A DNA stretch of 64,000 nt from the NCBI GenBank assembly GCA_964017185.1, contig OZ024875.1, positions 61,437,043 through 61,501,042 on the forward strand. Reading direction: 5' to 3'. The stretch is from Rugalucina vietnamica. Lineage: Eukaryota > Mollusca > Bivalvia > Lucinida > Lucinidae. The stretch's first letter is position 1, and every line of letters begins with the position of its first letter. Under the pieces are notes generated by a model. The model saw only the letters and a program-made list of their open reading frames with translations, was not told the origin of the DNA and ran no database searches. This document shows, in pieces, positions 3,487 to 62,210 of this stretch. A program made the position numbers and the translations under genes.

Positions 3487-4164
3487 GTCGAAATATGATA
3501 CTGTTTTCGCTTGACTACATAGTTTTTCTCCATATTTGTGTCTCTTACGGGAATGTCTTGAAAACTTAATTGGGCAAACATATGCTATTTCATAAAAACA
3601 TCAGGAAAATCGTATTAGCAGCTCGATCATTTTAGAGCTGTTTTAAGTTTATACACGCTACATGATCCTACATGCAGGACTCGAAAGACGTATCTTTTAT
3701 GGACTGGGTACCGACTTTTTTATCATTATTTATTTATGACTCTCTAAGCTCCCTTTCGTTATTTATTTGTCACTTTAAATATTTTTGCAATAATTCTCCG
3801 AATTCAGAACATGTAAGACAACAAATTTCTGTCTCATACACGAGTTTCAACTTTTCAACCATTCGCGCTCTTGCTGTTTTCGTTAAAGACTTCTGAAAAC
3901 CAATGATTAAATTCTTAAAATAAAGAACCCGAGTCATCTTTAATATTGTCTTTAGTTGTCACAATTTTAAGACGATCTTCTGTCGAGGTTACGGTATTGA
4001 AATTTTAAAGCGTCTGTCATCAGGCATCGGCTCATTAGGTCTTCAGATATTTGCTGCATTTGGCAACGCATAATCAATTTTTCCATGACAGTACGTTTTT
4101 CATTTTTCTAAGGTAGAACGAATAATAAACATGCAAATAAGGTTTGCAATATAAATTCCCGTTA
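3487..4164. other. Non-coding segment, paralogous to about 18990-19870
   Basis: Shares short blocks with the later segment, for example the TTGTGTCTCTT and AATTGGGCAAA stretches and the GGCAACGCATAAT motif near 4060 against 19800. This suggests the Naiad nest inserted into one member of a duplicated host segment. No gene is recognised. Confidence 0.5.
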
Positions 4165-4741
4165 AAAAAGGTACAAGTAGGCAAAGATCAGGAAAAGGCG
4201 CAATCAGAAAAAGACTCCCACTCCAAAAACCAAGGTGGGAAAAAACCAAACTAACAATCAGGCACTTATACCATGAAAACACTTCGTAAGCCGAATGAGC
4301 AGCTATTTTCCCAATAGGTGGCCACTCAGTTACCTTAACTTAACTAAAAATATGCAAACATACATAAGGCGCCAACAGCACAAAAATATTTTAAACACCA
4401 AGACATAAAACAAAAAGAACCACCACAGAAGTATCGACTTGGAACGATCAGTAACACAAAGTTACTGGCGGGTTTAAATCGATTTTACACGGCCGTAACC
4501 TCACCCTCAGCTTCTGCAGTGGTTCATAACATTTAGTTAGTTCTTCGGTCCTCGTGGTGAATCTCTAACTAGTAAATGAATCATCAAGAACAAACAAATA
4601 AATCATGATAAACATCCTGATGAATCAAAAACCAGGACTCACAGATACAGTAAGCTGCCCGACGATGGAGATCCCTGGGCGCCAAATAACTTACTACCTC
4701 CGGAACTAAAGAAAAACATCAGTTGGACCCCGGTGGGCCAA

Positions 4742-4817
4742 GCAACAGACAAGAAGCTCCGGCCCCAACCAACTAAAATGAATAGCTTTAAGTCGGGGCC
4801 ATCATAGAGTCTGACGC
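4742..4817 (-). promoter_or_regulatory. SECIS-like hairpin of Naiad copy 2
   Basis: Same architecture as the hairpin at 61188-61263: an AUGA and GA quartet pair, a GC-rich helix II, unpaired AA 12-13 bases after AUGA, a five-pair apical helix and a basal helix. The frame stop TAA (4788-4790) lies in the apical loop. The call rests on manual folding. Confidence 0.72.
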
Positions 4818-5858
4818 CCGACCCACCGGCGTGCAATTAAAGAAGGTAGCATAGTTATCAACCGTGATTGGGTTAAAAACTAAGCATGCAGACTGTCGCA
4901 TAACATTCAAGTTATAACCTATACGTCTGTAACGTGTTATGATTTTTCTAAACTGAAAAGAAAAATCATGACTTCCTATAAGTTTCTTAAATTTGTAAAC
5001 CAAGTCACCATAAAATTCTGGTTCCGAAAGACCCTCACTTAAAAGTGTCTTTAACCCAACATTATATTTGGAAACCAATTCATAGTGTCTACGATAAAAT
5101 TTAGAAAAGGTTTTTCGAAGTTTATGATACCGATAGCCCTGTTGGAGAAGTTTGGCCGTTAAAGATTTATTTCGAGCGTTGAAGTCTGTAACATGATTGC
5201 AGACTCTAGCAAACCTAATAAGTTGCGAAATGTATACACCATAAGAAGCACGACGAGGAACGTCACCATCCAAAAACGGAAAATTTACTATATCAAAATC
5301 AAAATCATCGCGCTTATCATAAATTTTAGAAGAAACAAATCCATTTGCAACAGAAAGATGTAGATCTAAAAAGGGGGCTTCGGTATCCGAGATATTGGCT
5401 TTGTTCAACTGTAGTTCAGATGGATAAATTTGATTGACCATACCTTCAAAATAAGGGTTGTCAATGTTCAAAAGGTCATCGAGGTACCTAGAAGTGGAAT
5501 TAAAAGCCTCGATAACATCAGCTTGATTATCATGGTTAAGAGAATCCATGAAATCTCTTTCATAGCAGTATAAAAATAAATCAGCTACGAGAGGTGCGCA
5601 ATTTGTACCCATCGGAATTCCAACAATTTGTCTGTATAACTTGGTCCCAAATCTAATATAAATATTATCCAGGAGATAGGATAAGCCGTCGCACACATTC
5701 TGACATGACCAAAGTGTATACCGACTTTGGTCAGAGGAAGTGAAAAAAGCCTTTCTGTCATTACATGCCAAATAAAGTGAACCATAGTTTTTTAATGCCC
5801 TTTTGAAGGTCCACTCTATCAAATCCAGAAGTTTTTCTTTAATTAGATTATGTGGTAA
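4788..5858 (-). pseudogene. Penelope-like reverse transcriptase, C-terminal two-thirds (copy 2)
   Basis: An open frame of about 350 codons read on the minus strand to TAA at 4788-4790. It contains the RT motif B core GIPMGTNCAPL, the catalytic YLDD box of motif C and the later FLDLHL motif, all typical of Penelope-like and telomerase-related RTs. It lacks the endonuclease, linker and RT fingers including motif A. The frame runs open into the preceding tail sequence, so the apparent first codons are fused junk and not a real start. This best-preserved stretch shows that the palm and thumb have not decayed much. It cannot make a working element alone. Confidence 0.85.
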
Positions 5859-6430
5859 AAAGGTACAAGTAGGCAAAGATCAGGAAAAGACGCAATCAGA
5901 AAAAGATTCCCACTCCAAAAACCTAGGTGGGAAAAAACCAAAGTAACAATCAGGTCTTTATACCATAAAACATATAGTAAGCCGAATGAGCAGCTATTTT
6001 CCCAATAGGTGGCCACTCAGTTACCTTAACTTAACTAAAAATATGAAAACATACATAAGGCGCCAACAGCACAAAAAAATTAAACACCAAGACATAAAAC
6101 AAAAAGAACCACTACAGAAGTATCGACTTGGAACGATCAGTAACACAAAGTTACTGGCGGGCTTAAACCGGTTTTACAGGTACCTAACCTCACCCTCAGC
6201 TTCTGCAGTGGTTCATAACATTTAGTTAGTTATTTGGTCCTTGTGGTGAATCTCTAACTAGTCAATGAATCATCAAGAACAAACAAATAAATCATGATAA
6301 ACATCCTGATGAATCAAAACCCAGGACTCACAGATTGAGTAAGCTGCCCGACGATGGAGATCCCTGGGCGCCGAATAACCTACTAACTCCGGAGCAAAAG
6401 AAAAACACCAGTTGGACCCCGGTGGGCCAA
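5859..6430 (-). promoter_or_regulatory. Naiad 3' tail (3' UTR) of copy 1
   Basis: The reference full tail, about 570 nt after the SECIS-like hairpin. Visible structures on the sense strand are a hairpin TAGTTAG/CTAACTA, a perfect short hairpin AGTAAC-loop-GTTACT, and a stem formed by TCCCAC and GTGGGA about 75 nt before the end. These are candidates for recognition by the element's RT. The terminus is TTGCCTACTTGTACC plus T-run. Confidence 0.7.
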
Positions 6431-6506
6431 GCAACAGACAAGAAGCTCCGGCCCCAACCAACTAAAATGAATAGCTTTAAGTCGGGGCCATCATAGAGTC
6501 TGACGC
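6431..6506 (-). promoter_or_regulatory. SECIS-like hairpin of Naiad copy 1
   Basis: Minus-strand RNA folds as at 61188-61263. The loop reads GACTTAAAGC instead of GACATAAAGC but keeps the AA and the UAA stop. If the three UGAs are recoded, this element would recruit SBP2 and the Sec elongation machinery. Folded by hand. Confidence 0.74.
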
Positions 6507-7375
6507 CCGACCCACCGGCGTGCAATTAAAGAAGGCAGCATAGTTATCAACCATGATTGGGTTAAAAACTAAGCATGCAGACTGTCGCATAACATTCAAG
6601 TTATAACCTATACGTCTGTAACGTGTTATGATTTTTCTGAACTGAAAAGAAAAATCGTTAATTCCTTTAAGTTTCTTAAATTTGTAAACCAAGTCACCAT
6701 AAAATTCAGGTTCCGCAAGGCCCTCACTTAAAAGCGTCTTTAACCCAACATTATATTTGGAAATCAATTCATAGTGTCTACGATAAAATTTAGAAAAGGT
6801 TTTTCGAAGTTTATGATACCGATAGCCCTGTTGAAGAAGTTTTGCCGTTAAACATTTATTTCTAGCGTTGAAGTCTGTAACATGATTGCAGACTCTAGCA
6901 AACCTAATAAGTTGCGAAATGTATACACCATAAGAAGCACGACGAGGAACGTCACCATCCAAAAACGGAAAATTTACTATATCAAAATCAAAGTCATCGC
7001 GCTTATCACAAATTTTAGAAGAAACAAATCCATTTGAAACAGAAAGATGTAGATCTAAAAAGGGGGCTTCGGTATCTGAGATATTGGCTTTGTTTAACTG
7101 AAGTTCAGGTGGATAAATTTGATTGACCATACCTTCAAAATAAGGGTTGTCAATGTTCAGAAGGTCATCGAGGTACCTAGATGTGGAATTAAAAGCCTCG
7201 ATAACATCAGCTTGATTATCATGGTTAAGAGAATCCATGAAATCTCTTTCGTAGCAGTATAAAAATAAATCAGCTACGAGAGGTGCGCAATTTGTACCCA
7301 TCGGAATTCCAACAATTTGTCTGTATAACTTGGATCCAAATCTAATATAAATATTATCAAGTTGTATACAGAGTA
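6477..7375 (-). pseudogene. Naiad-type RT C-terminal half (part 5 of copy 1)
   Basis: Resumes after the 188-nt deletion with the helix before motif B, then GIPMGTNCAPL (motif B), YLDD (motif C), FLDLHL and a basic thumb region. It ends in the stop TAA at 6477-6479 that also lies in the SECIS-like loop. Very close in sequence to the copies at 4788-5858 and 57293-58297, with no internal stop. Confidence 0.86.
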
Positions 7376-8211
7376 GAAAAATCATATGTGGACAAGCTCG
7401 TCGCACGGAACCCTCTACACTTCAATTTATTGAGCACCTCACCAGAATTTTTCATTGACCAAAACCAATTTTTATTTGAAGTTTCATACACTGTCTCACA
7501 GTATCTTATAACATGAGATTTGATAGCAGTAAGACAGGAAGTTAATAATTTAGAAAGTTCAGTAGTAGTACAAGAGCTAGAATTTGCAATAAATCTTGCT
7601 TTGTATGGTCTTTTGTGAAGCTTAGGTAACCAATACATCGTAGGAAGTTTGTCTTGGCCTTCATTGACACAAACAGAAAACTTAACAGGTAAATCGTTTA
7701 AGTGGGCATTTACTACAGACACCTCATCAGTATCTGTCTCCAGATAAGCCCTGGTACCATCCAGCTCCTGTTTTAAGGTGTTAACGTAGTGAAGCCTACA
7801 AACAACAACAACATTGTTTGCGGCTTTGTCTGCCGGAACCAAGACATACTTTCTGTGAAATTCTTGGATACCCTGCTTCAAATGCCTAAATGACGATTTA
7901 GGTTTAGGAGGTAAAAGATTAGTATTTTGTGAATAAAACTGTATACGTTTATCCACGATAGTGAAGATACTTCTTTTCCATTCTTTAAGAGCATTATCCT
8001 CAACACCCTCTCGTTTACACCATCGATTACCGAAATCATTCAATGCAGACGCAATCTCCTCTCTACATTTATCGAAATTGATGTATGATGGGAATCTATA
8101 TTTCGGACCTTTAGAAACAATTTTGCGAATTCTAGAATCCGAAATTATTTTTAAATTTCCAGTAACTATATGTCCGGCTGGTTGATAAACAAATTTTGAA
8201 TCTTTACAATC
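7357..8211 (-). pseudogene. Naiad-type linker and RT N-terminal half (part 4 of copy 1)
   Basis: Read on from UGA 3, this frame is fully open for about 280 codons. It includes the linker GHIVTG motif, then RT fingers with the DKAANNVVVV region, LPKLHKRPYKARFI, and motif A YDFSTLYTT with its catalytic Asp. The frame then breaks because 188 nt present in the copy at 58185-58372 are missing here, joined between CAAG and TTGTATAC near 7370. The predicted product is the N-terminal part of a telomerase-related RT. Confidence 0.85.
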
Positions 8212-9068
8212 TCAAGACTTAGGAGTATTAGCATGGATATCAAGATCAGAAACAAGTTTATTGAAATTAAAATAGTATTTCTGATTGGTTTATTATATTT
8301 GTAACAAATAATAGGAGGTTCTGAATTTTGGAAGTACGTAGGTATAGACTGTATCACTGATTTATCCTGGAATATGCTTGGTAAATCAATAAAGTCAATT
8401 CCTTTATTAATGAAAGGAATTTTAATGAAACTTCTAATGTGATTAGATTCGGAATCGATAAATGGACGAAGAGCATGCTGAGTATAACATCTTGTTAACA
8501 GTGCAGCGTCATACATTTGATGATTTCTATCGTAAAATCTATTAGCCTCTGTGTCCAAGGAACGTAATACAGCAATAGGCAGAGAACTAAGATAAGACAG
8601 CATTGGATGTCGACCGTGAATCCTTAGTTTAACAGCTAAAACATTAAGGGAAGTGTTCAATTTCATTGTAGCGCACCGTTTACGTTTGTCATTACCCTTT
8701 TTCCGTATACCATGAGATCTAGATTTACGTTTACGAGACTCTGAAAGTGTAAGTACACCAAAATCGGGCATTTTGGAAATATTTTCCTCATGGTAAATGT
8801 TGTCGTTAAATCCCAGTGGAAAGGGAGTTTGCAATAATTTTATCCATTTAAGTTCAGTTTCAAATCGTTTGATGTTTTTGAATCTAACAGAAGAATTTTC
8901 ATCATATGAGATTTTTTCCACTGGTTGAACTATAACATTATTGGGAGAATGACCAGTGTGCTTAAAATGCTGGTACAGAAAGGTATCATTATTTTTGGGC
9001 TTTCTGATTCTACGATAGTGCTCACCAAATCGTTTTTGCAAAGTTCGACAAGTTTGTCCAACATACTG
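8166..9068 (-). pseudogene. Naiad-type polyprotein, GIY-YIG endonuclease remainder and linker (part 3 of copy 1)
   Basis: Begins in phase after the LTR insertion with YVGQT (the YIG element), followed by LQKRFGEHYRRI holding the catalytic Arg and a conserved His, and later ETELKWIKLLQT with the probable catalytic Glu. A basic stretch rich in Arg/Lys follows, then a poorly known linker. One T lost from a T-run near 8273 (four T, against five in the copy at 59.3 kb) shifts the frame, so the open frame ends artificially at 8166. In the other phase the linker continues to the UGA-Asp-Cys motif and the RT. Confidence 0.82.
8212..8214 (-). other. In-frame UGA, probable selenocysteine codon 3 (linker UxC motif)
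   Basis: Reads Lys-Ser-UGA-Asp-Cys-Lys-Asp-Ser, ahead of YQPAGHIVTGNL. Naiad-type elements carry a conserved CxC motif in this linker, so UGA takes the place of the first Cys. The identical codon is present in the independent copy at 59223-59225. Confidence 0.8.
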
Positions 9069-9880
9069 TGTTATATATAATTGATTCAATAATATTGATT
9101 CTTTTAAAAGCTATTACTTATAATTTATATATATATATATATTCAAAGGGGAGTAACCCAATTAATTAATATATATTTCTTTTTATGTTTCTACAATTTA
9201 TTATCTAGAACTTTGTAGAAGAATGTCATTGATTATTTTTATCACTGTTATATAATTTAGAAGTATAGAAAATTCTATGAGGACTTTGTGGATAATTCCA
9301 GATGAAAATGGGGTTAGTGTTTTTTTTACCATAAGTTAAAAATATATTTGGACTATGTATACTGAGATCTCGAAGGGTCTAGTGGGCTCTCGTTTAGTCT
9401 TGATGGTCGTTGCGGCCTTGAATTCTCTCTGGAGAATTCTAAATTCTCTTTGGAGAATTTAAAAGAACTTTCGTTTAGTTCGTTTCTTTTCTAGAGAAAA
9501 GTTTATTATATCATTCTCTAGAAACCTGGAGAATTTCCTTAGATGTATAAATATAGGTCCCAATTCAGTCGTAGGTATTCAGAAATTTGAAGTGGTTTAA
9601 AGTATATAATTTTGGTTGTTTCACTAGTGTTTTGGATTAGAATAAAAGTGTGGATTAAAATATACATGTGCTCATATTCTGGTTACTGGATTGTGGACTT
9701 ACATTTGAGGGACAAGGACTTATTTGACATTAACTTTGTAAGTTATTTATTTATTTATTTACTTATCTGTTTGTTTGTTTGTATGTATTTGCAGCATTTA
9801 TTTGTTTGATTAAATATTGTTAAGTTTAAATTACTTGGTTGTTTTTCGCTGTACCTGTCTAGTTACGCTAGGTCGTAACA
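9069..9880 (+). repeat. 5' LTR
   Basis: Starts TGTTATATATAA and ends GGTCGTAACA. It contains a TATA box (TATAAATATA, 9546-9555), an initiator-like TCAGTC (9565-9570) and AATAAA (9641-9646), so R probably begins near 9567. Several TTCTC/GAGAA palindromes lie at 9420-9540. Every base I compared matches the 3' LTR with an offset of 6001. Confidence 0.93.
9546..9570 (+). promoter_or_regulatory. Putative LTR core promoter (TATA plus initiator)
   Basis: TATAAATATA at 9546-9555 is followed at 9565 by TCAGTC, the invertebrate initiator consensus. The spacing is slightly short of the usual 25-30 bp. The same pair is in the 3' LTR at 15547. Confidence 0.5.
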
Positions 9881-9885
9881 GATTT

Positions 9886-9903
9886 TGGGGGCTCGTCCGG
9901 GAT
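9886..9903 (+). promoter_or_regulatory. Primer binding site, tRNA-Pro type
   Basis: TGGGGGCTCGTCCGGGAT, five bases after the 5' LTR end. It equals the 18-nt site complementary to the 3' end of tRNA-Pro used by many retroviruses, so minus-strand DNA synthesis is probably primed by tRNA-Pro. Confidence 0.85.
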
Positions 9904-9978
9904 TGAACATTTTGTGCACCTATATTATTCTGAATTTGAAAAGATATTTATTGTTTGTCATACCAGCAAAAAGCAACC

Positions 9979-12900
9979 ATGTTATTCAAACTTGAAGATT
10001 TCATTGCTGCGCCTTCTCAAGAGCTGTTAAACTTGGCCAAAAAGAGTGATCTTTTAGACATTGCTAGTCATTATAGCATACCTGATGTCAAAACATCTAT
10101 GTTAAAACGTGAAATTAAGAATGTTATCATTCAGTTTCTTGTTGATGAGGAATGTTTTGAACCCTCAGCTACATCTCTTATTATGGTCTCACAAACCGAC
10201 ATACAGTTGAAAGAGTTAGAATTAAAAAGGCATCTTGAACTGGAAAAATTAAGATTAGAGTTTGAAGAAAAAAGAAGGGCAGATAAGGAAGAAAGGGAAG
10301 AAAAACTTGCAAGAGATAAAGCTGAAAGGGAAGAAAGAATGCAAAAAGAAAAGTTAGCATTTGAAGAAAGAGAGAAAGAAAAACAAAGAGAGTTTGAAAG
10401 AGAAAAGTCGGAAAAACAAAGAGAGTTAGAAGAAAGGCTTTTAAAAGAAAAATTAGATATGGAAGAAAGAGAAAAGGCAAAGCAAAGGGAAATGGAAGAA
10501 CGAGAAAAGGAAAAACACAGAGAAATGTTAAAAGAAATAGAACTTGAAAAAGAAAGAATGCATTATGATATTAAAATGAAAGAGCTTGAATTAAGCAGTA
10601 AATCAATGCCTCCTGTGTCTTTTGATCCTAGTAAAGTATTTGATGTTACAAAGCATATCAGGCTCGTTCCTCCATTTCAAGAAAAAGAGGTAGATAAGTA
10701 CTTTTTACATTTTGAGAAGGTAGCAGAAAATTTGAAATGGCCAAAAGAGCATTGGACCTTGCTTCTACAGAGTGTTGTTATTGGTAAAGCTCGAGAAATT
10801 TACACTCAACTTCCACTTGATCAAAGTTCAGATTATGACACAGTCAAAAATATGATTCTTAAGGCTTATGAATTAGTACCTGAAGCTTACAGGCAGAAAT
10901 TCAGAAATTGTAGGAAAGAACATGATCAAACCCATGTAGAATTTGCTAGAACTAAGGAGCAATTATTTGATAGGTGGTGTTCTTCAAAGGATGTAAAGTC
11001 TGATCATGCAAAATTAAGACAGCTCATGCTTGTTGAAGAGTTCAAACGATGCATACACTCTGATGTCAAATCTTTTCTTGACGAAAGGGAAGTAGAAACT
11101 TTAGATGTAGCAGCACGATTAGCTGATGATTATGCTTTGACTCATAAGGTGTCTTTTGTAAATAAGCCTTACAAGAAACCTTTTAATCCTCAATTTAAAC
11201 CTAATACACCTCAGTCAAAACCATTTAACCCTCAACAGAGAAATAATTCTCCTCAACCTAATCCACAACCACAAGCTGGACTAACAGCTGATAGTTCCAG
11301 TCCTTCACATAATCCTAAAAATAAAGATACTAGTGAAAACAAAGGTCAAAGATCCTCATACTCACCCCGGCTGTTTTGCAATTATTGTAAAGGTGACGGT
11401 CACGTCATTTCTGAATGTGAAACTTTGAAAAGAAGAAAAGAGAGACAAAATCAAAATAATTCTAGACCAACAGGTCTTACTTCTTTAAGGTCAAAACCAC
11501 AGTCGATTATTCAGGATGAAAATCCTATTTTGGCCAAAACGTCTGCGACTGATTGTATTATGGAGATTTATGAACCATTCTTATCAGAAGGTTTTGTGTC
11601 ACTTACTAGTGATTCTGCCCAGTCTACCCCTATTAAAATCTTACGAGATACCGGAGCTTCTCAGTCTCTTATTTTAGCAGATACCCTGCCTTTTTCCGAG
11701 AAGACTTCAACTGGGACAAGTGTCCTTATTCAGGGAGTAGAGTGTGGATTTGTTAATGTACCGCTCCATAACATTTATTTGTCTTCAGACTTAGTTTCTG
11801 GTCCTGTGGCTGTAGGTATTAGGCCTTCTTTACCTTTTAAAGGTGTTCACTTGCTATTAGGCAATGACTTAGCCGGAGATAAGGTTGTGGTAAACCCACT
11901 TTTGACCAATATACCTTGTGAGGATCAATTGCCTGATCCCATTGAGCAGGAAATTCCTGATCTTTACCCTTCATGTGCCGTTACAAGGGCTATGGCAAAA
12001 AAAGTCAAATTGAATGATGGGATACAGGATATTGACTTAACTGACACTTTTATAGGTCAGTCTTTTCATGATGAGATTTCAAAATCTCTTTCTTCAAGTC
12101 AAACTGACTTCAACAATCAAAGGTCAGACAATGACCTTTCACCTTCAATTTTTGACCAAGGTCACGACCAAATGTCAAGGTCACAACTTTGTCAAGAACA
12201 GCACAGTGATCCTGAAATCTCGCCTTTATTTGAACGGGCTTTAGATGAAAATGAAATTTCTCAGGTTCCTGTTTGTTTTTATGTCAAAAATGACATCTTA
12301 ATGAGAAAATGGCGTCCTCCTGATGTTTCAGCGGAAGACGAATGGACCATAAATCACCAAATTGTGGTTCCTAAGGCGTATCGTCCTGAAATCTTAAACT
12401 TGGCCCATGAAACTCCCATGTCAGGTCATTTAGGGATAAATAAGACTTACCACAAAATTCTCAAGCATTTCTACTGGCCAGGATTAAAATCTGATGTTTC
12501 CCAACATTGCAAATCCTGTCACACTTGTCAAATGGTAGGAAAACCTAATCAGACTATTCCAAAAGCTAATTTACAGCCTATTCCTGCATTTGATGAACCA
12601 TTTAGTAGGATTATCATTGACTGTGTAGGTCCGTTACCCAAGACTAAATCAGGTTGCCAATATCTCTTGACTATAATGTGTGCTTCAACACGTTTTCCTG
12701 AAGCAATTCCACTCAGGAATATCAAGACGAAAACAATAGTTAAGGCCCTTGTAAAGTTTTTCACACTTGTAGGTCTTCCAAAATCAGTCCAATCAGATCA
12801 GGGTTCCAATTTTATGTCAGGAACATTTCAGCAAGTAATGCATGAACTTGGCATTAAACAATACAAGTCATCAGCTTATCATCCTGAAAGTCAAGGTGCT

Positions 12901-14985
12901 TTGGAAAGATTCCATCAAACTTTGAAGAACATGATCAGATCTTACTGTTTTGACACCGAAAAAGATTGGGATGGAGGCATACATTTGCTATTATTTGCTG
13001 TCAGAGAGTCAGTACAAGAGTCTCTTGGGTTCAGTCCGTTTGAACTTGTTTTCGGACACACTGTTCGTGGACCTTTAAAACTTATGAAAGAGAAGTTTCT
13101 TTCAAGTAATGAAAGTCCTTTGAACTTACTTCAGTATGTGTCTGACTTCAAAACTAGATTGACAAAAGCTTGGGACGTTGCTCGGTCCAATCTTAAGTCA
13201 GCTCAGAGCAAAATGAAGTTGCATTTTGATGAAAATGCTCAGAACAGAAATTTTGACCCTGGAGACAAGGTGATTGCTCTTTTGCCCATTCCTGGCAGGC
13301 CATTACAAGCTAGATATTATGGTCCATATACTGTTGAGAAAAAGTTAAGTGATGTAAATTACATTGTTAACACTCCTGGGAGGCGCAAGCAAAAACAATT
13401 ATGTCATATTAACATGCTTAAAAAGTACATTGATAGGGATAGTGATAATGATAGTTCAGTTATTTCCTCAGTAAGCATAGTTAATTCTGTCCCTCATGAA
13501 CAAAATCAGACAGACTTTGAAAAAATGAACTCTGTGAACTGTGAACCATTATCCTCAAAACTCCAGAATTCTGACATTCTTCATGACCTCGATCAGAAAC
13601 TGTCACATCTAGATCCGGACAAGAAACATGAACTAAAACAATTAATTCTTGAATATGAGCACTTATTTCCGGACATTCCATCCAGAACCGATAAAATCTA
13701 CCATGATGTAGACATTATTGAAGGAGCAAAACCGGTGAAACAACATCCGTATAGACTTCATCCTGAAAGACAACAATATCTCAGGAAAGAAGTGAAGTAT
13801 TTGCTGGACAATGACTTTATAGAACCTAGTCAAAGTGAATGGAGTTCTCCTTGTATACTTGTGCCAAAATCTGATGGGACATTTCGAATGTGCACAGACT
13901 ATAGAAAAGTAAATTCTGTCACAAAAACTGACACATTTCCCATACCAAGAATTGATGACTGCATCGACAACATTGGTCACGCCAAATATGTGACGAAATT
14001 CGATCTTTTGAAAGGGTTTTGGCAGATTCCACTTACAGACAGAGCAAAGGAGATCTCGGCATTTGTTACTCCTGATGGACTTTATCAATATAAAGTGATG
14101 CCTTTTGGCATGAAAAACTCTCCAGCAACATTTCAGCGCTTGGTTAATAGTTTGATTTTCGGTCTGGATGGGTGTAAAGCTTACATCGACGATGCCATCA
14201 TCTACAGTGAAAAATGGAAACAACACCTGGAGATCATCAGAGAATTTTTCAAAAGACTCAGTGATGCTAAACTGACAATAAACTTACCGAAAAGTGAATT
14301 TTGCCATGCTAGTTTGACATTTCTAGGACATATTGTTGGACAAGGTCAGGTCAGACCTGTAGAAGCCAAAGTTGAGGCTATATCAGATTTTCCTGTACCT
14401 ACAGGAAAACGGCAACTGATGCGCTTTTTGGGTATGGCTGGATATTACAGAAAGTTCTGTAATAATTTTTCAGTTATAGCTGAGCCTTTGACAAATTTAC
14501 TTGGTAAGAAGGTCAGGTATGATTGGTCTGAGGCTTGTCAGAAGTCTTTTGATCAGTTAAAGGCCATACTTAAGAGTGCTCCAGTTCTATCAGCACCACG
14601 CTTTGACAGAGAATTCAAAATGGCGGTGGATGCAAGTGATGTTGGTGCAGGCAGTATATTGTTACAAGAAGATGACAATGGTGTTGATCATCCTGTTTGT
14701 TACTTTTCAAAGAAGTTTGACAAACATCAAAGAAATTATTCTACTATAGAGAAAGAATGTCTATCTCTTATTCTTGCCCTTCAACACTTTCAAGTGTATC
14801 TGTCTTCTGCAAATTCACCAATTGTCGTCTTCAGTGATCACAATCCACTGACCTTCATACACAAAATGAAAAACAAGAATCAGCGTTTGTTCAGATGGAG
14901 TCTCATGTTGCAAGAGCACAATCTTGACATTAGACACATAAAAGGTAGAGATAATATAATTCCAGACACCCTTTCAAGAGCTTGA
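9979..14985 (+). CDS. gag-pol: Gag-Pol polyprotein (Gag, protease, integrase, reverse transcriptase, RNase H)
   Basis: One 1668-codon frame; the first ATG (9979, with A at -3) is chosen over an upstream in-phase TTG. Domains: N-terminal 60 residues with a SAP-like helix pair; a highly charged coiled coil (about 75-205); capsid-like Gag; CCHC knuckle CNYCKGDGHVISEC (467-480); protease DTGAS (557-561); integrase HHCC zinc domain from 810, catalytic D881, D940 and E976 (35 residues apart), GPY-type tail near 1115; RT with YIDD (1402-1405); RNase H with Asp 1551 and 1620. The frame ends a few residues after the typical DTLSRA motif. No frameshift or stop separates gag from pol, so Gag and Pol would be made as one protein unless processed otherwise. 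All catalytic residues I checked are present. Confidence 0.95.
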   Translation: MLFKLEDFIAAPSQELLNLAKKSDLLDIASHYSIPDVKTSMLKREIKNVIIQFLVDEECFEPSATSLIMVSQTDIQLKELELKRHLELEKLRLEFEEKRRADKEEREEKLARDKAEREERMQKEKLAFEEREKEKQREFEREKSEKQRELEERLLKEKLDMEEREKAKQREMEEREKEKHREMLKEIELEKERMHYDIKMKELELSSKSMPPVSFDPSKVFDVTKHIRLVPPFQEKEVDKYFLHFEKVAENLKWPKEHWTLLLQSVVIGKAREIYTQLPLDQSSDYDTVKNMILKAYELVPEAYRQKFRNCRKEHDQTHVEFARTKEQLFDRWCSSKDVKSDHAKLRQLMLVEEFKRCIHSDVKSFLDEREVETLDVAARLADDYALTHKVSFVNKPYKKPFNPQFKPNTPQSKPFNPQQRNNSPQPNPQPQAGLTADSSSPSHNPKNKDTSENKGQRSSYSPRLFCNYCKGDGHVISECETLKRRKERQNQNNSRPTGLTSLRSKPQSIIQDENPILAKTSATDCIMEIYEPFLSEGFVSLTSDSAQSTPIKILRDTGASQSLILADTLPFSEKTSTGTSVLIQGVECGFVNVPLHNIYLSSDLVSGPVAVGIRPSLPFKGVHLLLGNDLAGDKVVVNPLLTNIPCEDQLPDPIEQEIPDLYPSCAVTRAMAKKVKLNDGIQDIDLTDTFIGQSFHDEISKSLSSSQTDFNNQRSDNDLSPSIFDQGHDQMSRSQLCQEQHSDPEISPLFERALDENEISQVPVCFYVKNDILMRKWRPPDVSAEDEWTINHQIVVPKAYRPEILNLAHETPMSGHLGINKTYHKILKHFYWPGLKSDVSQHCKSCHTCQMVGKPNQTIPKANLQPIPAFDEPFSRIIIDCVGPLPKTKSGCQYLLTIMCASTRFPEAIPLRNIKTKTIVKALVKFFTLVGLPKSVQSDQGSNFMSGTFQQVMHELGIKQYKSSAYHPESQGALERFHQTLKNMIRSYCFDTEKDWDGGIHLLLFAVRESVQESLGFSPFELVFGHTVRGPLKLMKEKFLSSNESPLNLLQYVSDFKTRLTKAWDVARSNLKSAQSKMKLHFDENAQNRNFDPGDKVIALLPIPGRPLQARYYGPYTVEKKLSDVNYIVNTPGRRKQKQLCHINMLKKYIDRDSDNDSSVISSVSIVNSVPHEQNQTDFEKMNSVNCEPLSSKLQNSDILHDLDQKLSHLDPDKKHELKQLILEYEHLFPDIPSRTDKIYHDVDIIEGAKPVKQHPYRLHPERQQYLRKEVKYLLDNDFIEPSQSEWSSPCILVPKSDGTFRMCTDYRKVNSVTKTDTFPIPRIDDCIDNIGHAKYVTKFDLLKGFWQIPLTDRAKEISAFVTPDGLYQYKVMPFGMKNSPATFQRLVNSLIFGLDGCKAYIDDAIIYSEKWKQHLEIIREFFKRLSDAKLTINLPKSEFCHASLTFLGHIVGQGQVRPVEAKVEAISDFPVPTGKRQLMRFLGMAGYYRKFCNNFSVIAEPLTNLLGKKVRYDWSEACQKSFDQLKAILKSAPVLSAPRFDREFKMAVDASDVGAGSILLQEDDNGVDHPVCYFSKKFDKHQRNYSTIEKECLSLILALQHFQVYLSSANSPIVVFSDHNPLTFIHKMKNKNQRLFRWSLMLQEHNLDIRHIKGRDNIIPDTLSRA

Positions 14986-15057
14986 CAGTTTTGCCTTGTA
15001 TGTTTGCATATGAGTATTGCAAAAGAAAGTTTTATTTCACAAAACTTTCTTTTCGTT

Positions 15058-15069
15058 GAAGAGGGGAAG
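15058..15069 (+). promoter_or_regulatory. Polypurine tract
   Basis: GAAGAGGGGAAG directly abuts the 3' LTR start TGTTAT. It is the expected plus-strand primer position. Confidence 0.85.
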
Positions 15070-15881
15070 TGTTATATATAATTGATTCAATAATATTGAT
15101 TCTTTTAAAAGCTATTACTTATAATTTATATATATATATATATTCAAAGGGGAGTAACCCAATTAATTAATATATATTTCTTTTTATGTTTCTACAATTT
15201 ATTATCTAGAACTTTGTAGAAGAATGTCATTGATTATTTTTATCACTGTTATATAATTTAGAAGTATAGAAAATTCTATGAGGACTTTGTGGATAATTCC
15301 AGATGAAAATGGGGTTAGTGTTTTTTTTACCATAAGTTAAAAATATATTTGGACTATGTATACTGAGATCTCGAAGGGTCTAGTGGGCTCTCGTTTAGTC
15401 TTGATGGTCGTTGCGGCCTTGAATTCTCTCTGGAGAATTCTAAATTCTCTTTGGAGAATTTAAAAGAACTTTCGTTTAGTTCGTTTCTTTTCTAGAGAAA
15501 AGTTTATTATATCATTCTCTAGAAACCTGGAGAATTTCCTTAGATGTATAAATATAGGTCCCAATTCAGTCGTAGGTATTCAGAAATTTGAAGTGGTTTA
15601 AAGTATATAATTTTGGTTGTTTCACTAGTGTTTTGGATTAGAATAAAAGTGTGGATTAAAATATACATGTGCTCATATTCTGGTTACTGGATTGTGGACT
15701 TACATTTGAGGGACAAGGACTTATTTGACATTAACTTTGTAAGTTATTTATTTATTTATTTACTTATCTGTTTGTTTGTTTGTATGTATTTGCAGCATTT
15801 ATTTGTTTGATTAAATATTGTTAAGTTTAAATTACTTGGTTGTTTTTCGCTGTACCTGTCTAGTTACGCTAGGTCGTAACA
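15070..15881 (+). repeat. 3' LTR
   Basis: 812 bp, TGTTATATATAA to GGTCGTAACA. No difference from the 5' LTR was seen. It is followed by ACTG, the target duplication, and then by the rest of the Naiad endonuclease on the other strand. Confidence 0.93.
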
Positions 15882-15906
15882 ACTGTATCCTACAATTGTT
15901 TGTATT

Positions 15907-15909
15907 TCA
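15907..15909 (-). other. In-frame UGA, probable selenocysteine codon 2 (endonuclease)
   Basis: Between LVYVLT and NTNNC, eleven codons after the first UGA. Relatives usually have a Cys right after the VYLIT-like strand, forming a metal-binding pair with the Cys a few residues later. That second Cys is kept here. Confidence 0.72.
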
Positions 15910-15939
15910 AGTAAGAACATATACAAGATCCATTGATTT

Positions 15940-15942
15940 TCA
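15940..15942 (-). other. In-frame UGA, probable selenocysteine codon 1 (endonuclease)
   Basis: Between DSDLD and KSMDLVY. From family knowledge this position is normally Cys in the C-x-S-x-N-V-[IV]-Y lead-in of GIY-YIG domains of this type. The surrounding frame is otherwise open on both sides. Confidence 0.72.
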
Positions 15943-16121
15943 GTCTAAATCAGAATCATTAACCACTGAAAATGTCCTACCATTCACAGATGAAGTGATA
16001 GTAGTCTTAGAGCATAAATGATTGCAACAGTTGCACTTCTTGGCATTGCACTTAGAAATACTAGGGTACATTCCAGGTCTCTTGAACGGATTAATATATT
16101 TACGTAAAATTGGTGATTTAA

Positions 16122-17068
16122 GGATGTTCGCTGCCAACATTTGACATTTCGGAACTTCCGGTTTTTATTTTGTTGAATATCTCGTAAACGGTTGCAGATA
16201 TCTTCCTAATATTTTATATTTGAATACATATTGATGATATGCATTGAATGAGTCATGAAAATTGTCAATCTAAGGAACTTCATTTTTTCACCCCATTTTC
16301 TGCAAATTTTTTGAAAATTTTATGTGTCAGCAAAATTTAGGGGGTAGGGTTGATTAAACTTGAATAGTACACAACTTCAAATTACTTGCACTGATTTGAT
16401 GTTTATTTTAGCAAAAGTAGATGTATACGATGTCTTCTTTATCCGTATTTCTTTTTTGGGTGTGCTAGTTTTAAAATTTTGGGTGGTTTTATGAAATGGG
16501 GTGTTGGAAGAAAAACAGCCGAATAAAGGCTTAAAATGGCGATTTTCAAGTTGTTGGTTCTCTCTTATATGCGCACTACCCTATATTTTTCATTCTTTTA
16601 TTCGAATAATATGAACAAGTTCTATGTCGTGTGAAAATACAAGAAAAAGTTTGAATCTACAAATATGGATTTGACACATTTATAAATATTGATTTTTTTT
16701 GCGACTTTTCAAGTTAGGGGGTAGGGTTGTTCAAAGAGTCGAAAAAAATTGTCATCCACTTCAAGGTGAAAATCTATGTATGCTTTAAGTCCAAAATAGA
16801 CAGAGTTACTTCAACTATATGCCTTTTGAAAGCATTCGTGACGCATTGTTTGTCCAGGAAGGTTTGTGTGAAAAAATTGAAAATTAAATTATTTTTTTCT
16901 AATTTTCAAACATGTGGTTTATAGGTCTCATTCAGAGCCCTGTATCTCGAAAAAATGCACACTACCCTATATTTATTTTGTTTTCATGTGTCTTATTTTA
17001 TCTTTTGGAATCAAAAAAGGGCGGTTAGAAAAAAAGTTTGAATACTTTTTCATTGGCAGCGAACATCC
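16122..17068. mobile_element. TTAA-flanked inverted-repeat DNA element, copy B
   Basis: 947 bp, GGATGTTCGCTGCC to its inverse, flanked by perfect TTAA on both sides (16118-16121 and 17069-17072). Removing the element and one TTAA makes the Naiad frame continuous, so the insertion is direct evidence for both the boundaries and the target duplication. The interior resembles copy A over its length but with many substitutions and small indels. No transposase frame. Confidence 0.88.
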
Positions 17069-17072
17069 TTAA

Positions 17073-17361
17073 GTGGAGATAACCTTATCTGAAGATTATT
17101 ACGAAACATATAAGAATTAGAAGCTCCGTGTAGATTAACAGTAGATGCCGAAAATAAATTAAGAGGTGTCACCCTAACAGTAGGTAATAAATTTTGAAAA
17201 TTGTTAGTTGAACGAGGAATCCGTACAGTAGACGCGGCATGCAACCTAAGGGGAGTTAATGTAATTCCTAATCTTTTTGTGATAGTCATAGTTGGGAGTT
17301 CTGTGTTGATACTGCCAAAAGAAGCGCGACACTCATACCGGTTATAGAAAAAATAATGCAT
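17073..17361 (-). pseudogene. Naiad-type polyprotein, N-terminal segment (exon-like part 1 of copy 1)
   Basis: The frame opens at ATG 17361 (minus strand). A TAA codon lies immediately upstream in frame, which fixes this ATG as the earliest start. About 98 codons of Ser/Thr/Asn/Leu-rich sequence follow, with no domain I recognise. The frame is cut by the TTAA element at 17072/16118 and continues in phase on the other side, so this is the true N-terminus of the endonuclease-RT protein. The following segment carries the cysteine cluster. Confidence 0.75.
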
Positions 17362-17661
17362 TTAATCGTAATGCAAAATCTCTCAAATGAAAGAACAAGG
17401 TATAACCGAAGCCCACATCTCAGGTCAATGTCTTATACAAGTCTATGGATAGAAACGTAAGAATCGTTTATACAACGAGATACGAGTGACGGTCAACTAA
17501 TGACCTTCAATACGGTATCGAAGAGTTGTGGTAGTTAGAGATAGGAAAATACAAACTGATTGCAAGCAATCCCTGAGGATTGGAAAAATAAGAGCATTGA
17601 ATGGATGTACGGGGAAACTTTTTAGGGCCGCCACACGGCACAACCACAAGAACTCTGATAT
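17362..17661 (-). other. Naiad copy 1 5' leader
   Basis: The 300 nt between the upstream tail terminus and the ATG of the Naiad frame. About 60 nt of it (17527-17585) recur at 38756-38815 beside an old tail, supporting its membership of the element. No upstream frame of note. Confidence 0.55.
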
Positions 17662-17662
17662 A

Positions 17663-17856
17663 AAAAAGGTACAAGTAGGCAAAGATCAGGAAAAGGCGCA
17701 ATCAGAAAAAGACTCCCACTCCAAAAACCAAGGTGGGAAAAAACCAAACTAACAATCAGGCACTTATACCATGAAAACACTTCGTAAGCCGAATGAGCAG
17801 CTATTTTCCCAATAGGTGGCCACTCAGTTACCTTAACTTAACTAAAAATATGCAAA
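17663..17856 (-). mobile_element. Truncated Naiad tail, upstream tandem partner of copy 1
   Basis: Only the last 190 nt of the tail, same orientation as copy 1, with its T-run abutting the copy 1 leader. It fits the left partial repeat (pseudo-LTR) of a tandem Penelope-like insertion. Confidence 0.85.
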
Positions 17857-19457
17857 GTATTTTAACTGACATTTATTCTTGAACTTTTAGCTCAAGGGTC
17901 TGGCTTTCGTTGCCAGTTTGCAAAGGGTCACTGATGAGGGTTCAATACCTGAATTTGTACAACATGGACCACCTTATTCCTTTGACTTTTTAGCTGCTTC
18001 CAAAGTATCTAACAAATATATATCATATGGAATATTGGTATGCAAACTTAGCTTGAAATTAAAGTCAAATTGAATTATAACCACTTACAAAGAAGCACTA
18101 TATCAATGTGACGCATATAGTTCTATTTCATATTATATATAATCTTGCTATACGTCAAATTAATCCATGATATCTTCAGCAGAATTTGGTAAAAATAATA
18201 CACTATTTCCTCGAGACACCAACGTTCAAAGCCGGGGTCATTAGTCTAGTGTAGTCACACCAGGGACTATACTGCCTGGTTATATCCCAAAATAGATAAA
18301 CGACAGAAACGCGCAATTTTCTGTCGAATTTGTAAATCTGTCATCAGATTGTCTACTTGTATGTATCAACAAAGTTTCACCATCCTACATGGTAAAAGTC
18401 CGTTTTTGTGAAACAGTGCTGTTTTGTAATATTTAACAGAAAACAGTTATGCGACGCTGCTATTTATTCATGCTCAATATGATACGTGCTGGATTCTGCA
18501 TTAAATCTTTATTACCGTTTTGTTGATAAACTGGCAGATATTTGTTTGGCGACAAACTTGAGTACTGAATTGGAATTAAAATGCAAGTACAAACACTTGA
18601 TAAACACGATTGTCCCAAACATACCTGTAGATGCACAAATGAATAAATAAATCCTTGGCCAGAAACATAAAATTATAACAAAAATACAGCATATGAAATA
18701 GGCAATGAATCACAATCTAACGACCGTTGCTCTATGTAAAGGGACAGGTAGACAATGATTTGGAAATGGCGCAATATACCGAGGGGTGGGAAAAAAAACT
18801 AAAAAATGCGTACACATACCTTTAAAATGTAAACAAATAAGAAACATAATACATGATATAGGTTCCTCTAAGCTGTTTATCGATTCTTGAACTGACATTT
18901 TGCAGATGTTAAAAGATGAAAGCAGCAACTTGTTTCGTCGTGGGAATTGTATTGTCGAAAAACTATATGCTTCTGTTTATCGCTTGATTACAAACTTTTT
19001 CCGATATAATTGTGTCTCTTTTGGGAAATGTCTTAAGCATCTAATTGGGCAAAAAGGGATATTTTGCAAGCAACATAGTTATTTGAGAGAATGTTTTGCT
19101 TTAGCAACCGAAATCGTATGACAAAGTGAATGATTGCTCAATGTATTGTTTTCGGTTAATATTGTCCCATTTAAGGGAGAGCCAGGGTCCCCTATATGTA
19201 GGTCGAATGCTCGACAACCATTGTTTTTCACGTGAGTTTCAATGTTTGCCCGCAGACTTATTTTTTAAGTCTGGAAAACTTCAAAAAAGTGATGATAAAT
19301 TTCTAAATACAAAAAGGACTCGTGTCACCTTAAATATACCCACTTCGGATGTCTCAATCATCAAAGAGACATTACGAAAAGACGCCCATGGTATATTCGG
19401 AGATTTGTGAAGTTGTAAAAAATGAAAATTGGAAAATTTTGGATGTTTTTTTTTTTT
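17857..19457. other. Non-coding sequence with an old Naiad tail relic at 18738-18805
   Basis: Mostly AT-rich unique sequence. At 18738-18805 a decayed minus-strand tail is visible (GGTAGACAATGAT, GGCGCAAT, GGTGGGAAAAAA). From about 18900 onwards it is paralogous to 2160-4160. No gene recognised. Confidence 0.55.
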
Positions 19458-20276: not shown

Positions 20277-20345
20277 ATTATTTCATGGCCATTAGAAGTG
20301 ATTTGGGTTTATATATATGCTAAAATTGGCGTACAGAATCGGAAG

Positions 20346-20418
20346 ACCGCGGTGGTGTAATGGTTAGCACGTCAGCCCGGAATGCAGGAGGTCCGTGGTT
20401 CGATTCCCGGTCGCGGCA
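20346..20418 (+). tRNA. tRNA-like gene, unit 1 (degenerate; not a standard tRNA)
   Basis: 73 nt with recognisable cloverleaf arms. The A box (TGGTGTAATGG) and B box (GGTTCGATTCC) fit Pol III consensus, and a TTTT run follows about 10 nt downstream. The D arm is like tRNA-Gln. The anticodon loop would be CCGGAAT (C at 33, triplet GGA), and two T-stem pairs are broken. This unit also has TCAGC instead of TCTGC in the anticodon stem. It may be a Pol III small RNA or tRNA-derived repeat, not a decoder. Confidence 0.5.
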
Positions 20419-20698
20419 CGACCGACTTTTGTACGCTAATTCTGTTTGTTTATATAATTTCCTGTATCGTGGCATTCTCTATTTCTTCAAAACTTCTTCC
20501 CGATGCAGTAGAGCGTCTATAAATCTAATATAATAAATGAAAAGCAAACACAAATAGAATAAAAATGGCCGCCGTCCGTAGGTAATAAAAAGAACCGAAA
20601 ATGATAGGGTCGCCTATGGCGGTAAATGAAAGGCCGCTAAATAGCGTCATTGACGTCAAAGGTTTATAGATGCTAAAATTGGCGTACAGAATCGGAAG

Positions 20699-20771
20699 AC
20701 CGCGGTGGTGTAATGGTTAGCACGTCTGCCCGGAATGCAGGAGGTCCGTGGTTCGATTCCCGGTCGCGGCA
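20699..20771 (+). tRNA. tRNA-like gene, unit 2
   Basis: Same as unit 1 but with the anticodon stem TCTGC/GCAGG restored. Boxes A and B and the TTTT stop are intact. Confidence 0.5.
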
Positions 20772-21051
20772 CGACCGACTTTTGTACGCTAATTCTGTTT
20801 GTTTATATAATTTCCTGTATCGTGGCATTCTCTATTTCTTCAAAACTTCTTCCCGATGCAGTAGAGCGTCTATAAATCTAATATAATAAATAAAAAGCAA
20901 ACACAAATAGAATAAAAATGGCCGCCGTCCGTAGGTAATAAAAAGAACCGAAAATGATAGGGTCGCCTATGGCTGTAAATGAAAGGCCGCTAAATAGCGT
21001 CATTGACGTCAAAGGTTTATAGATGCTAAAATTGGCGTACAGAATCGGAAG

Positions 21052-21124
21052 ACCGCGGTGGTGTAATGGTTAGCACGTCTGCCCGGAATGCAGGAGGTCC
21101 GTGGTTCGATTCCCGGTCGCGGCA
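21052..21124 (+). tRNA. tRNA-like gene, unit 3
   Basis: Identical core to unit 2. Confidence 0.5.
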
Positions 21125-21404
21125 CGACCGACTTTTGTACGCTAATTCTGTTTGTTTATATAATTTCCTGTATCGTGGCATTCTCTATTTCTTCAAAACT
21201 TCTTCCCGATGCAGTAGAGCGTCTATAAATCTAATATAATAAATAAAAAGCAAACACAAATAGAATAAAAATGGCCGCCGTCCGTAGGTAATAAAAAGAA
21301 CCGAAAATGATAGGGTCGCCTATGGCGGTAAATGAAAGGCCGCTAAATAGCGTCATTGACGTCAAAGGTTTATAGATGCTAAAATTGGCGTACAGAATCG
21401 GAAG

Positions 21405-21477
21405 ACCGCGGTGGTGTAATGGTTAGCACGTCTGCCCGGAATGCAGGAGGTCCGTGGTTCGATTCCCGGTCGCGGCA
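21405..21477 (+). tRNA. tRNA-like gene, unit 4
   Basis: Identical core to unit 2. The following spacer carries a private substitution (AGCTTCATTG for AGCGTCATTG). Confidence 0.5.
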
Positions 21478-21757
21478 CGACCGACTTTTGTACGCTAATT
21501 CTGTTTGTTTATATAATTTCCTGTATCGTGGCATTCTCTATTTCTTCAAAACTTCTTCCCGATGCAGTAGAGCGTCTATAAATCTAATATAATAAATAAA
21601 AAGCAAACACAAATAGAATAAAAATGGCCGCCGTCCGTAGGTAATAAAAAGAACCGAAAATGATAGGGTCGCCTATGGCTGTAAATGAAAGGCCGCTAAA
21701 TAGCTTCATTGACGTCAAAGGTTTATAGATGCTAAAATTGGCGTACAGAATCGGAAG

Positions 21758-21830
21758 ACCGCGGTGGTGTAATGGTTAGCACGTCTGCCCGGAATGCAGG
21801 AGGTCCGTGGTTCGATTCCCGGTCGCGGCA
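21758..21830 (+). tRNA. tRNA-like gene, unit 5
   Basis: Identical core to unit 2. The downstream spacer has TTTCCGGTATCG in place of TTTCCTGTATCG. Confidence 0.5.
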
Positions 21831-22110
21831 CGACCGACTTTTGTACGCTAATTCTGTTTGTTTATATAATTTCCGGTATCGTGGCATTCTCTATTTCTTC
21901 AAAACTTCTTCCCGATGCAGTAGAGCGTCTATAAATCTAATATAATAAATAAAAAGCAAACACAAATAGAATAAAAATGGCCGCCGTCCGTAGGTAATAA
22001 AAAGAACCGAAAATGATAGGGTCGCCTATGGCGGTAAATGAAAGGCCGCTAAATAGCGTCATTGACGTCAAAGGTTTATAGATGCTAAAATTGGCGTACA
22101 GAATCGGAAG

Positions 22111-22183
22111 ACCGCGGTGGTGTAATGGTTAGCACGTCTGCCCGGAATGCAGGAGGTCCGTGGTTCGATTCCCGGTCGCGGCA
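22111..22183 (+). tRNA. tRNA-like gene, unit 6 (last)
   Basis: Identical core to unit 2. Its spacer ends after 30 nt where the AT microsatellite starts. Confidence 0.5.
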
Positions 22184-22212
22184 CGACCGACTTTTGTACG
22201 CTAATTCTGTTT

Positions 22213-22214
<2 letters not shown>

Positions 22215-22292
<78 letters not shown>
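22215..22292. repeat. (AT)n microsatellite
   Basis: About 78 bp of alternating A and T with one phase break, marking the end of the tRNA-like array. Confidence 0.95.
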
Positions 22293-22295
<3 letters not shown>

Positions 22296-22486
22296 TGAGA
22301 TTTGGGTGATATACATCAAACAGACAAACCTGTCGGTAGCACCGGATCCATAAATGGATGCTCGAATGATATGCTTTAAGTATATGTGGAGATTTTATCA
22401 TTAACGGTGCAAAATTTTATTTTGACGCAACGTTCTGTGGCGTCATATCTGGTGTCGTACTTTTTGCTTATGTTCCACAGAGACCG

Positions 22487-53938: not shown

Positions 53939-54665
53939 CGGGACACCTGCTTGGATTCACACAAGTCAAAATGCACAAAGGTTGTACGACAACGCTATTT
54001 AAAAGACCTAAACTACACTCATGAACAACTTATGAAACCATACATGTCTTTTTTTGACTGCATATTTAATACAGATATACTTTACCAACATTGGGAGTGT
54101 TTGTTGTTTGGATGGAAATTTTGAATTTAATTTAATTTCAGTTTATTCATTTCTATACAAAGACGACAAAATAGTCTTCCAGTAGTTTTAACCGAAATAG
54201 AATTTTTGCTTTGTTTAATTTCAGGACAGCATTCAATTTCATAGACTTATTAATCTGACTAGTTTAGCAAGCTGATATCATTTGCGTCATGAGATTGCAT
54301 TTTCAGATTAAATTTTCTGTCTGTGTGAATAGCATTGCCGTAGTTGATTTTTCCTATCAACACTTTATCTAGCCTTGCATATATAATGTCGTGTTACTTA
54401 AAGATCTTTTTTCTGCTTTTATAAGTAAGGTAGCCTTCATGAATACAACCATCAACGGCTTGTCTTATTAAAGTGATAATGGGGTCAATAGTCTCTACCT
54501 GGATGAGGCCACATAAAGTGATTAAGTTGTTTAGAATAACCCCTTCATTGGCAAATGATTACGTCACAACGGATAAATGCGTATGGAGTCTAACACACAG
54601 ACAAACTTCTAGATATCACATCGGGTAAACATGGTAATTGATCTAGAGCGCAGAAAATGAATCAT

Positions 54666-62182: not shown

Positions 62183-62210
62183 TAAAAACTTTAACCAAAA
62201 ACTTTAACAT

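Follow-up and report, generated by a model that had tools for sequence, protein, structure and literature searches.

Can a retrotransposon whose reading frame holds three UGA codons encode one full-length protein? The question is raised by a 64,000-nt stretch of the genome of the bivalve Rugalucina vietnamica (contig OZ024875.1, positions 61,437,043 to 61,501,042 of the forward strand), hereafter the window, with positions counted from its first letter. The window lies within a 1.09-Gb genome assembly of 47 contigs and contains, at 17856-5856 of the minus strand, the main copy of a Penelope-like element of the Naiad type, which has its endonuclease in front; two nested inserts split the copy. 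We hold with high confidence that the element belongs to a young multicopy family and that its single protein of ~1,077 residues is a selenoprotein, the three UGAs being read as selenocysteine (Sec). A selenoprotein had been proposed by the sequence-only reading of this DNA, and the proposal is supported by a conserved open frame, by the position of the UGAs at cysteine (Cys) columns, by a match to the Sec insertion sequence (SECIS) model and by loci for the Sec transfer RNA (tRNA-Sec). In the proposed mechanism, the UGAs at residues 133, 144 and 437 (numbered as in the open copy L059) would be read as Sec where most relatives have Cys, and the tRNA-Sec and Sec elongation machinery of the host would decode them, guided by one type II SECIS. 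We infer that Sec is really inserted at all three UGAs.

The UGAs of the main copy stand in frame, at columns where most relatives have Cys, as had been noticed from the letters alone; they and the stop codon are the following.

15940-15942, minus strand: UGA (putative Sec) site 1, residue 133; TGA in 32/32 places.
15907-15909, minus strand: UGA (putative Sec) site 2, residue 144; TGA in 32/32 places.
8212-8214, minus strand: UGA (putative Sec) site 3, residue 437, at the first Cys position of a conserved CxC; TGA in 33/33 places.
6477-6479, minus strand: stop codon UAA, within the SECIS; its AA belongs to the apical AAA.

Followed in phase with the inserts set aside, the main copy has no stops besides its three UGAs and the terminal UAA; ~74 stops would be expected by chance in 1,077 random codons of the same base composition. 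If three new stops arose at random, the probability that each would be a UGA at a Cys codon is ~1e-4 (7e-5 to 2e-4, depending on transition bias). Compared with L059, the main copy lacks 1 nt near 8269 and ~188 nt near 7360, because of which its reading shifts between frames. The earlier claim that this copy is one open frame once the inserts are ignored therefore stands for the lack of TAA and TAG in phase before its end, and falls for the continuity of the frame. A single open frame with three UGAs does exist elsewhere in the genome, in five of the 20 copies that were fetched.

Genome copies were searched with a 261-nt query holding the first two UGAs (site 437 lies outside it). The search gave 1,011 candidate places, 40 of which were scored; all 40 matched, giving at least 40 near-identical places, and the 39 outside the window cover query 25 to 260/261 at (rounded) 100% identity. 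The five open copies among the 20 fetched at full length (L054, L059, L063, L065 and L066) run for 1,077-1,101 codons up to a shared UAA, each with exactly three UGA and without UAA or UAG before it. Their frames are equally long, with 13 to 127 differences in 3,231 nt between any two of them; the exact start string present in the other four is missing from L065. Codons were counted over the window, fetched and flank loci, with one place perhaps counted twice (L056 and L057 overlap). The check that had been proposed with the sequence-only reading, conservation of UGA and only UGA at the three sites, came out in its favour among the places counted: TGT and TGC were never seen there (counts above). 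Residue 575, a fourth Cys position of interest below, was TGT in 33/33 places.

The hairpins at the 3' ends of the window copies were scored with Rfam SECIS_1 (RF00031, cut-off 35 bits).

6435-6502, minus strand: SECIS of the main copy, 39 bits, passes the cut-off.
4746-4813, minus strand: SECIS of the third copy, 39 bits.
57266-57333, minus strand: SECIS-like hairpin of the second copy, 32.5 bits, under the cut-off; AAA motif changed.
61192-61259, plus strand: SECIS of the fourth copy, 37.4 bits.

All four hairpins for which a SECIS had been claimed are thus SECIS-like, three of them passing (39.0, 39.0 and 37.4 bits) and the decayed second copy failing. Rejection of all four by a SECIS predictor, named beforehand as an outcome that would refute the reading, did not occur with this model. 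All three open copies that were scanned scored 39.0 bits, with a hairpin identical to that of the main copy, and its AUGA, AAA and GA features match the family model at E 2.5e-4 when both strands of the whole window are searched. The hairpin was covered in 27 places: 14 matched the main copy exactly, and the rest had 1-3 base changes or one end gap. In the main copy, the fold energy is -28.0 kcal/mol for the 68-nt hairpin (z -4.4) and -65.9 kcal/mol for the 141-nt foldback that it forms with its flanks (z -5.6); the 141 nt of L063 gave z -6.0. The hairpin of the decayed second copy gave z -3.1, and one of 200 shuffles folded equally well.

The hairpin does not lie in the 3' untranslated region (UTR): it contains the stop codon. 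In the main copy, AUGA occupies 6494-6491, the UAA 6479-6477 and the apical AAA 6478-6476, two of whose three bases come from the stop codon, and about one third of the SECIS (6502-6435) is coding. The offset from AUGA to UAA, 15 nt, is constant in the five open copies, and the UAA lies within the SECIS in all five. The 3' UTR of the element is ~600 nt long, room enough for a SECIS. Judged from its position, the SECIS would be transcribed together with the frame that it serves. Counted from the end of the stop codon, L059 and L063 are identical over the 75 nt upstream and the 68 nt downstream, and differ at 25 alignment positions in the next 505. The protein tails of relatives carry the same mark, since Met has one codon and a tail with Met-Met (or Met-Ile, Met-Thr) therefore implies AUGA in the RNA. 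Among the best 120 of 3,555 relatives, 70 had the tail motif; 65 of these tails imply AUGA and 64 of the 65 end three codons later, while five motif tails do not imply AUGA and 50 proteins were without the motif as searched. The 64 tails are not independent, many clusters being close kin, and as peptide tails they speak for the 5' half of the hairpin only. A SECIS across the stop is, on these tails, apparently common to the relatives. The earlier idea that the SECIS placement may be new is strengthened, since the hairpin spans the stop codon.

It is quite unlikely, in our judgement, that the hairpin is an RNA signal of the element's own, for instance for recognition by the reverse transcriptase (RT), that resembles a SECIS. 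Its membership of the much longer 141-nt foldback, the other structured RNA in the 3' UTR of the element and a score barely above the cut-off would fit such a signal, but the three SECIS motifs align with the family model at the E-value given above, and the hairpin co-occurs with in-frame UGAs at Cys sites.

Relatives were compared in a first alignment of L059 with 41 of 43 matching proteins (P0004 and P0043 were left out). Where a residue is present, columns 133, 144, 437 and 575 hold only Cys or tryptophan (Trp, W): W in 2, 1, 4 and 5 rows and Cys in 25, 28, 35 and 37 rows, respectively, with L059 counted as Cys. Among the Cys columns of L059, W occurs only at these four and at none of the fully Cys columns 97, 102, 105, 149 and 439; W is also present at ordinary Trp columns of the alignment. 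Protein P0026 has W at all four columns, and P0055 has W at 133, 144 and 437, matching the three sites of the window family. The relatives that carry W at these columns are 39-80% identical to L059. At column 575, 21 of the 39 proteins found with P0026 end exactly before the column (17 identified by script, P0058 by eye, and three Pinctada imbricata gene models). Because the three Pinctada models end there and are 80-91% identical to P0026 over the aligned part, W575 of P0026 corresponds to a stop in the standard code. As far as protein sequences can tell, the relatives appear to use up to four Sec sites, with Cys at the fourth (575) in the window family. Since 575 would be a Sec site in relatives and is TGT in the window family, Sec and Cys seem to be exchanged at fixed columns. 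The suggestion that the Sec positions may be new is weakened accordingly, as relatives share them.

Column 575, with W or a protein end in P0008, P0026, P0064, P0067 and P0045-P0065, corresponds to the Cys within the RT motif (I/V)C(K/R)xxY. DNA of the relatives was not found in scans of viral contigs and prokaryote genome contigs. Two element proteins, P0099 and P0101, are listed under metagenome-assembled genomes of Candidatus Thiodiazotropha; they probably derive from host DNA that remained in assemblies of a symbiont. Such symbiont-labelled hits, like the Pinctada gene models, point to a bivalve host.

A tRNA-Sec search of the genome gave 24 matches; two of them, at 79 and 71 bits, exceed the cut-off (47 bits) and have UCA in the anticodon loop. 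The tRNA-like repeats at 20312-22376 of the window were considered as tRNA-Sec and rejected, ARAGORN calling five tRNA-Ser with anticodon GGA. They form a 353-bp tandem repeat of six copies (the last 69% alike), with an Rfam tRNA-like match in each of the six.

Readthrough of the UGAs without Sec, by suppression inserting Trp, arginine or Cys and perhaps giving truncated as well as full-length products, is very unlikely. The 132 residues N-terminal to site 1 could form a product of their own, and the database translations of relatives do show Trp; the latter most likely reflects the choice of genetic code at the source, however, as the Pinctada models made with the standard code end at 575, and all three UGAs fall on Cys columns, a SECIS lies downstream of them and the genome has tRNA-Sec loci.

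Selection on the frame was measured between L059 and L063, which have 85 nt differences in frame. The ratio of nonsynonymous to synonymous differences per site (pN/pS) was 0.10 before site 133, 0.17 for residues 144-436 and 0.14 for residues 437-1057 (synonymous/nonsynonymous counts 3/1, 16/10 and 36/19, in that order). As the ratio is low past each UGA, the downstream parts have been kept as protein: to judge from these substitutions, purifying selection acts on the frame past each UGA. The close pair L059 and L054 gave 0.44 on 13 changes, too few to weigh. Ordinary decay, with the UGAs as nonsense mutations fixed in one founder that was mobilised in trans by intact Cys-type copies that may exist elsewhere in this genome, is very unlikely: it fits the 15 of 20 fetched copies that are not open from the UGAs to the UAA and the indels of the window copies, but not five open frames holding only three UGAs, zero Cys codons at the three sites in 32-33 places, purifying selection beyond each UGA, Trp-read UGA at the same columns in relatives of 39-80% identity to L059, or a SECIS.

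Several observations weigh against the selenoprotein reading that we prefer. The score of 39 bits is only 4 bits above the SECIS_1 cut-off, the 3' side of the quartet is CGGAG against a model consensus of CUGAU, and the hairpin of the open copy L065 has three changes, two of which break pairs (judged by eye). TGA at sites 1 and 2 was already part of the search query; of the 1,011 candidate places 40 were scored, and 15 of the 20 fetched copies are broken. The copies are young, their flanks being 95-100% alike, and the shared TGA is therefore partly a matter of recency. Among relatives, which are known from protein sequences, W is tied to UGA directly for column 575 only. In P0028, W stands at 133 against Cys in near-identical paralogues, perhaps through a single mutation; P0066 and P0074 show L at 437 in a second alignment, in a stretch that looks misaligned.

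The fold of the protein was examined on an AlphaFold2 model of L059 (mean predicted local distance difference test score, pLDDT, 77.7). Its 15 best PDB matches were all TERT chains (best E 5.6e-11, template modelling scores modest), and its RT is thus related to that of telomerase. The GIY-YIG endonuclease lies N-terminal to the RT, with YVGQT at residues 153-157; Pfam GIY-YIG matched 23 of the 42 aligned members, L059 itself having no Pfam hit at 0.001. In the model, the first GIY-YIG strand spans 138-144, with site 133 just before it and site 144 at its end, while site 437, the first Cys of the CxC, stands in front of the RT. Next to the GIY-YIG and RT folds, the Sec residues would belong to Cys clusters with a metal-binding or redox role. 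A pseudo-long terminal repeat (pseudo-LTR) and tandem arrangement was also found: a copy of the 3' end precedes the element, and three places lie 4,228 bp apart on one contig. The Naiad label is given by domain order rather than by a tree. The remaining parts of the main copy, its inserts and the other copies in the window are as follows.

17664-17856, minus strand: 5' pseudo-LTR piece of the main copy, a copy of the element's 3' end; 93.8% identity to 5857-6049.
17069-17411, minus strand: 5' part of the open reading frame (ORF; N-terminal leader), main copy; 98.5% identity to L059 1163-1505, no indels.
16123-17068, unstranded: nested DNA-transposon-like insert interrupting the ORF; inverted ends, TTAA on both sides.
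15882-16122, minus strand: N-terminal part of the endonuclease, with a Cys-rich knuckle, the start of the GIY-YIG fold and UGA sites 1 and 2; 99.6% identity to L059 1501-1741.
9069-15881, plus strand: nested LTR retrotransposon with Gmr1-like domain order; LTR repeat pair, target duplication CAGT.
8215-9068, minus strand: remainder of the endonuclease and linker, main copy; 1-nt deletion near 8269.
6480-8211, minus strand: RT region, main copy; ~188 nt missing near 7360, residue 575 TGT (Cys), TERT-like fold in the L059 model.
6106-6215, minus strand: structured junction in the 3' UTR, containing a self-complementary site of 8 nt; site variation compensated.
4165-5859, minus strand: third Naiad copy, 5'-truncated, end to end with the main copy; 98.6% identity to L059 3447-5141.
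56699-59921, minus strand: second Naiad copy, 5'-truncated; 95.4% identity to L059 1905-5142.
59223-59225, minus strand: UGA site 3 of the second copy.
60852-61585, plus strand: fourth Naiad copy, a fragment with the RT end and 3' UTR; 94.8% identity to L059 4153-4889.

Window positions 9068-7359 are 98.7% identical to L059 1738-3448, with one indel, and the coding part of the second copy carries a frameshifting 8-nt insertion and an 8-nt deletion. The DNA-transposon-like insert has a second window copy at 3434-2537 (84% alike), and its queried end was found in 39 further genome places at 94-98% identity. In the LTR retrotransposon, the ORF at 9955-14985 has the Pfam order SCAN-like gag, integrase, RT and RNase H; with integrase before RT, we take it to be Gmr1-like Ty3/gypsy. 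Two SECIS places each were present in L053, L057 and L058, and the several element ends in some fetched loci are in keeping with tandem or clustered insertion.

The ~110-nt RNA junction at 6215-6106 (minus strand), with its equivalents in the 3'-UTR and pseudo-LTR copies and in L047-L066, includes an 8-nt site; of 47 places, 43 have it as a perfect palindrome and the other four with one broken pair. Six kinds of palindrome were seen: ACGGCCGT in 26 places, ATGGCCAT in 7, AGGTACCT in 6, AGGCGCCT in 2, and AGGGCCCT and AGGATCCT in 1 each (six further CTCA pattern hits were set aside as coding-region matches, and overlapping loci may repeat places). A second palindrome, AAATCGATTT or AAACCGGTTT, follows the 8-nt site in most places. 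The compensated self-complementarity of the 8-nt site suggests RNA dimerisation through a kissing loop, perhaps akin to the dimeric hammerheads of other Penelope-like elements (excerpt of PMC6466107). A twister ribozyme was rejected for this 3'-UTR structure: scores were 20-23 bits against a twister-P1 cut-off of 67.2, and the strong closing stem conflicts with twister P1. A hammerhead ribozyme was looked for since other Penelope-like elements carry one (excerpts of PMC11167929 and PMC7229834), and none was found up to E = 5 in 4000-18000 and 54000-64000.

What the position of the SECIS over the stop might do is a more tentative matter. Every terminating ribosome would open the SECIS, and Sec insertion would thereby be tied to ribosome load. 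It is possible, though we lean against it, that a bivalve-type lineage has a working stop-straddling SECIS that is opened by the terminating ribosome, with Sec insertion and full-length transposase falling as translation rises, a built-in brake. Any regulatory meaning of the stop-spanning SECIS is a guess. The arrangement nevertheless makes it possible to test directly whether a eukaryotic SECIS can work when translation terminates on it, and the high-copy, apparently recent family offers a natural set of replicate SECIS and UGA contexts. Exchange of Sec and Cys at four Cys columns gives a handle on why an element gains or loses Sec. Selenoproteins are rare, and mobile elements dependent on the selenium machinery of their host are rarer.

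Selenoprotein members of the Naiad clade (Craig, Yushenova, Rodriguez and Arkhipova, 2021, MBE 38:5005) have reportedly been found in clams and spiders; selenoprotein Naiads are a known class, and the stop-spanning SECIS is the part worth following. No paper on selenoprotein retrotransposons was among the literature matches listed. The window element is like the Naiad clade in its animal host, its N-terminal GIY-YIG endonuclease before a TERT-like RT, its pseudo-LTRs and its tandem copies. Selenoprotein P (SELENOP), a redox and transport protein, has its SECIS elements in the 3' UTR. It resembles the window element in having several UGAs in one frame; unlike in SELENOP, one SECIS would here serve three UGAs, in a retrotransposase.

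With the canonical Penelope/Poseidon elements the window element shares tandem copies with pseudo-LTRs and the combination of RT and GIY-YIG endonuclease, whereas in those elements the endonuclease is C-terminal and accompanied by a hammerhead (excerpt of PMC11167929) and here it is N-terminal. The nearest comparisons for the SECIS come from viruses and a ciliate. Fowlpox virus GPX4 (Mix, Lobanov and Gladyshev, 2007) has a working eukaryotic-type SECIS within its ORF (excerpts of PMC8310308 and PMC6769590), canarypox has a fossil coding-region SECIS (PMC6769590, same excerpt), and for one ciliate glutathione peroxidase a SECIS is predicted in the coding region, on the reverse strand (excerpt of PMC7409322). 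All cellular counterparts of in-ORF SECIS elements lie in the 3' UTR according to the excerpt of PMC8310308, and a working stop-straddling SECIS would be a placement undescribed for cellular genes in the excerpts covered. The SECIS of fowlpox GPX4 thus lies inside the frame of a viral enzyme, whereas that of the window element straddles the stop codon despite the ~600-nt 3' UTR behind it.

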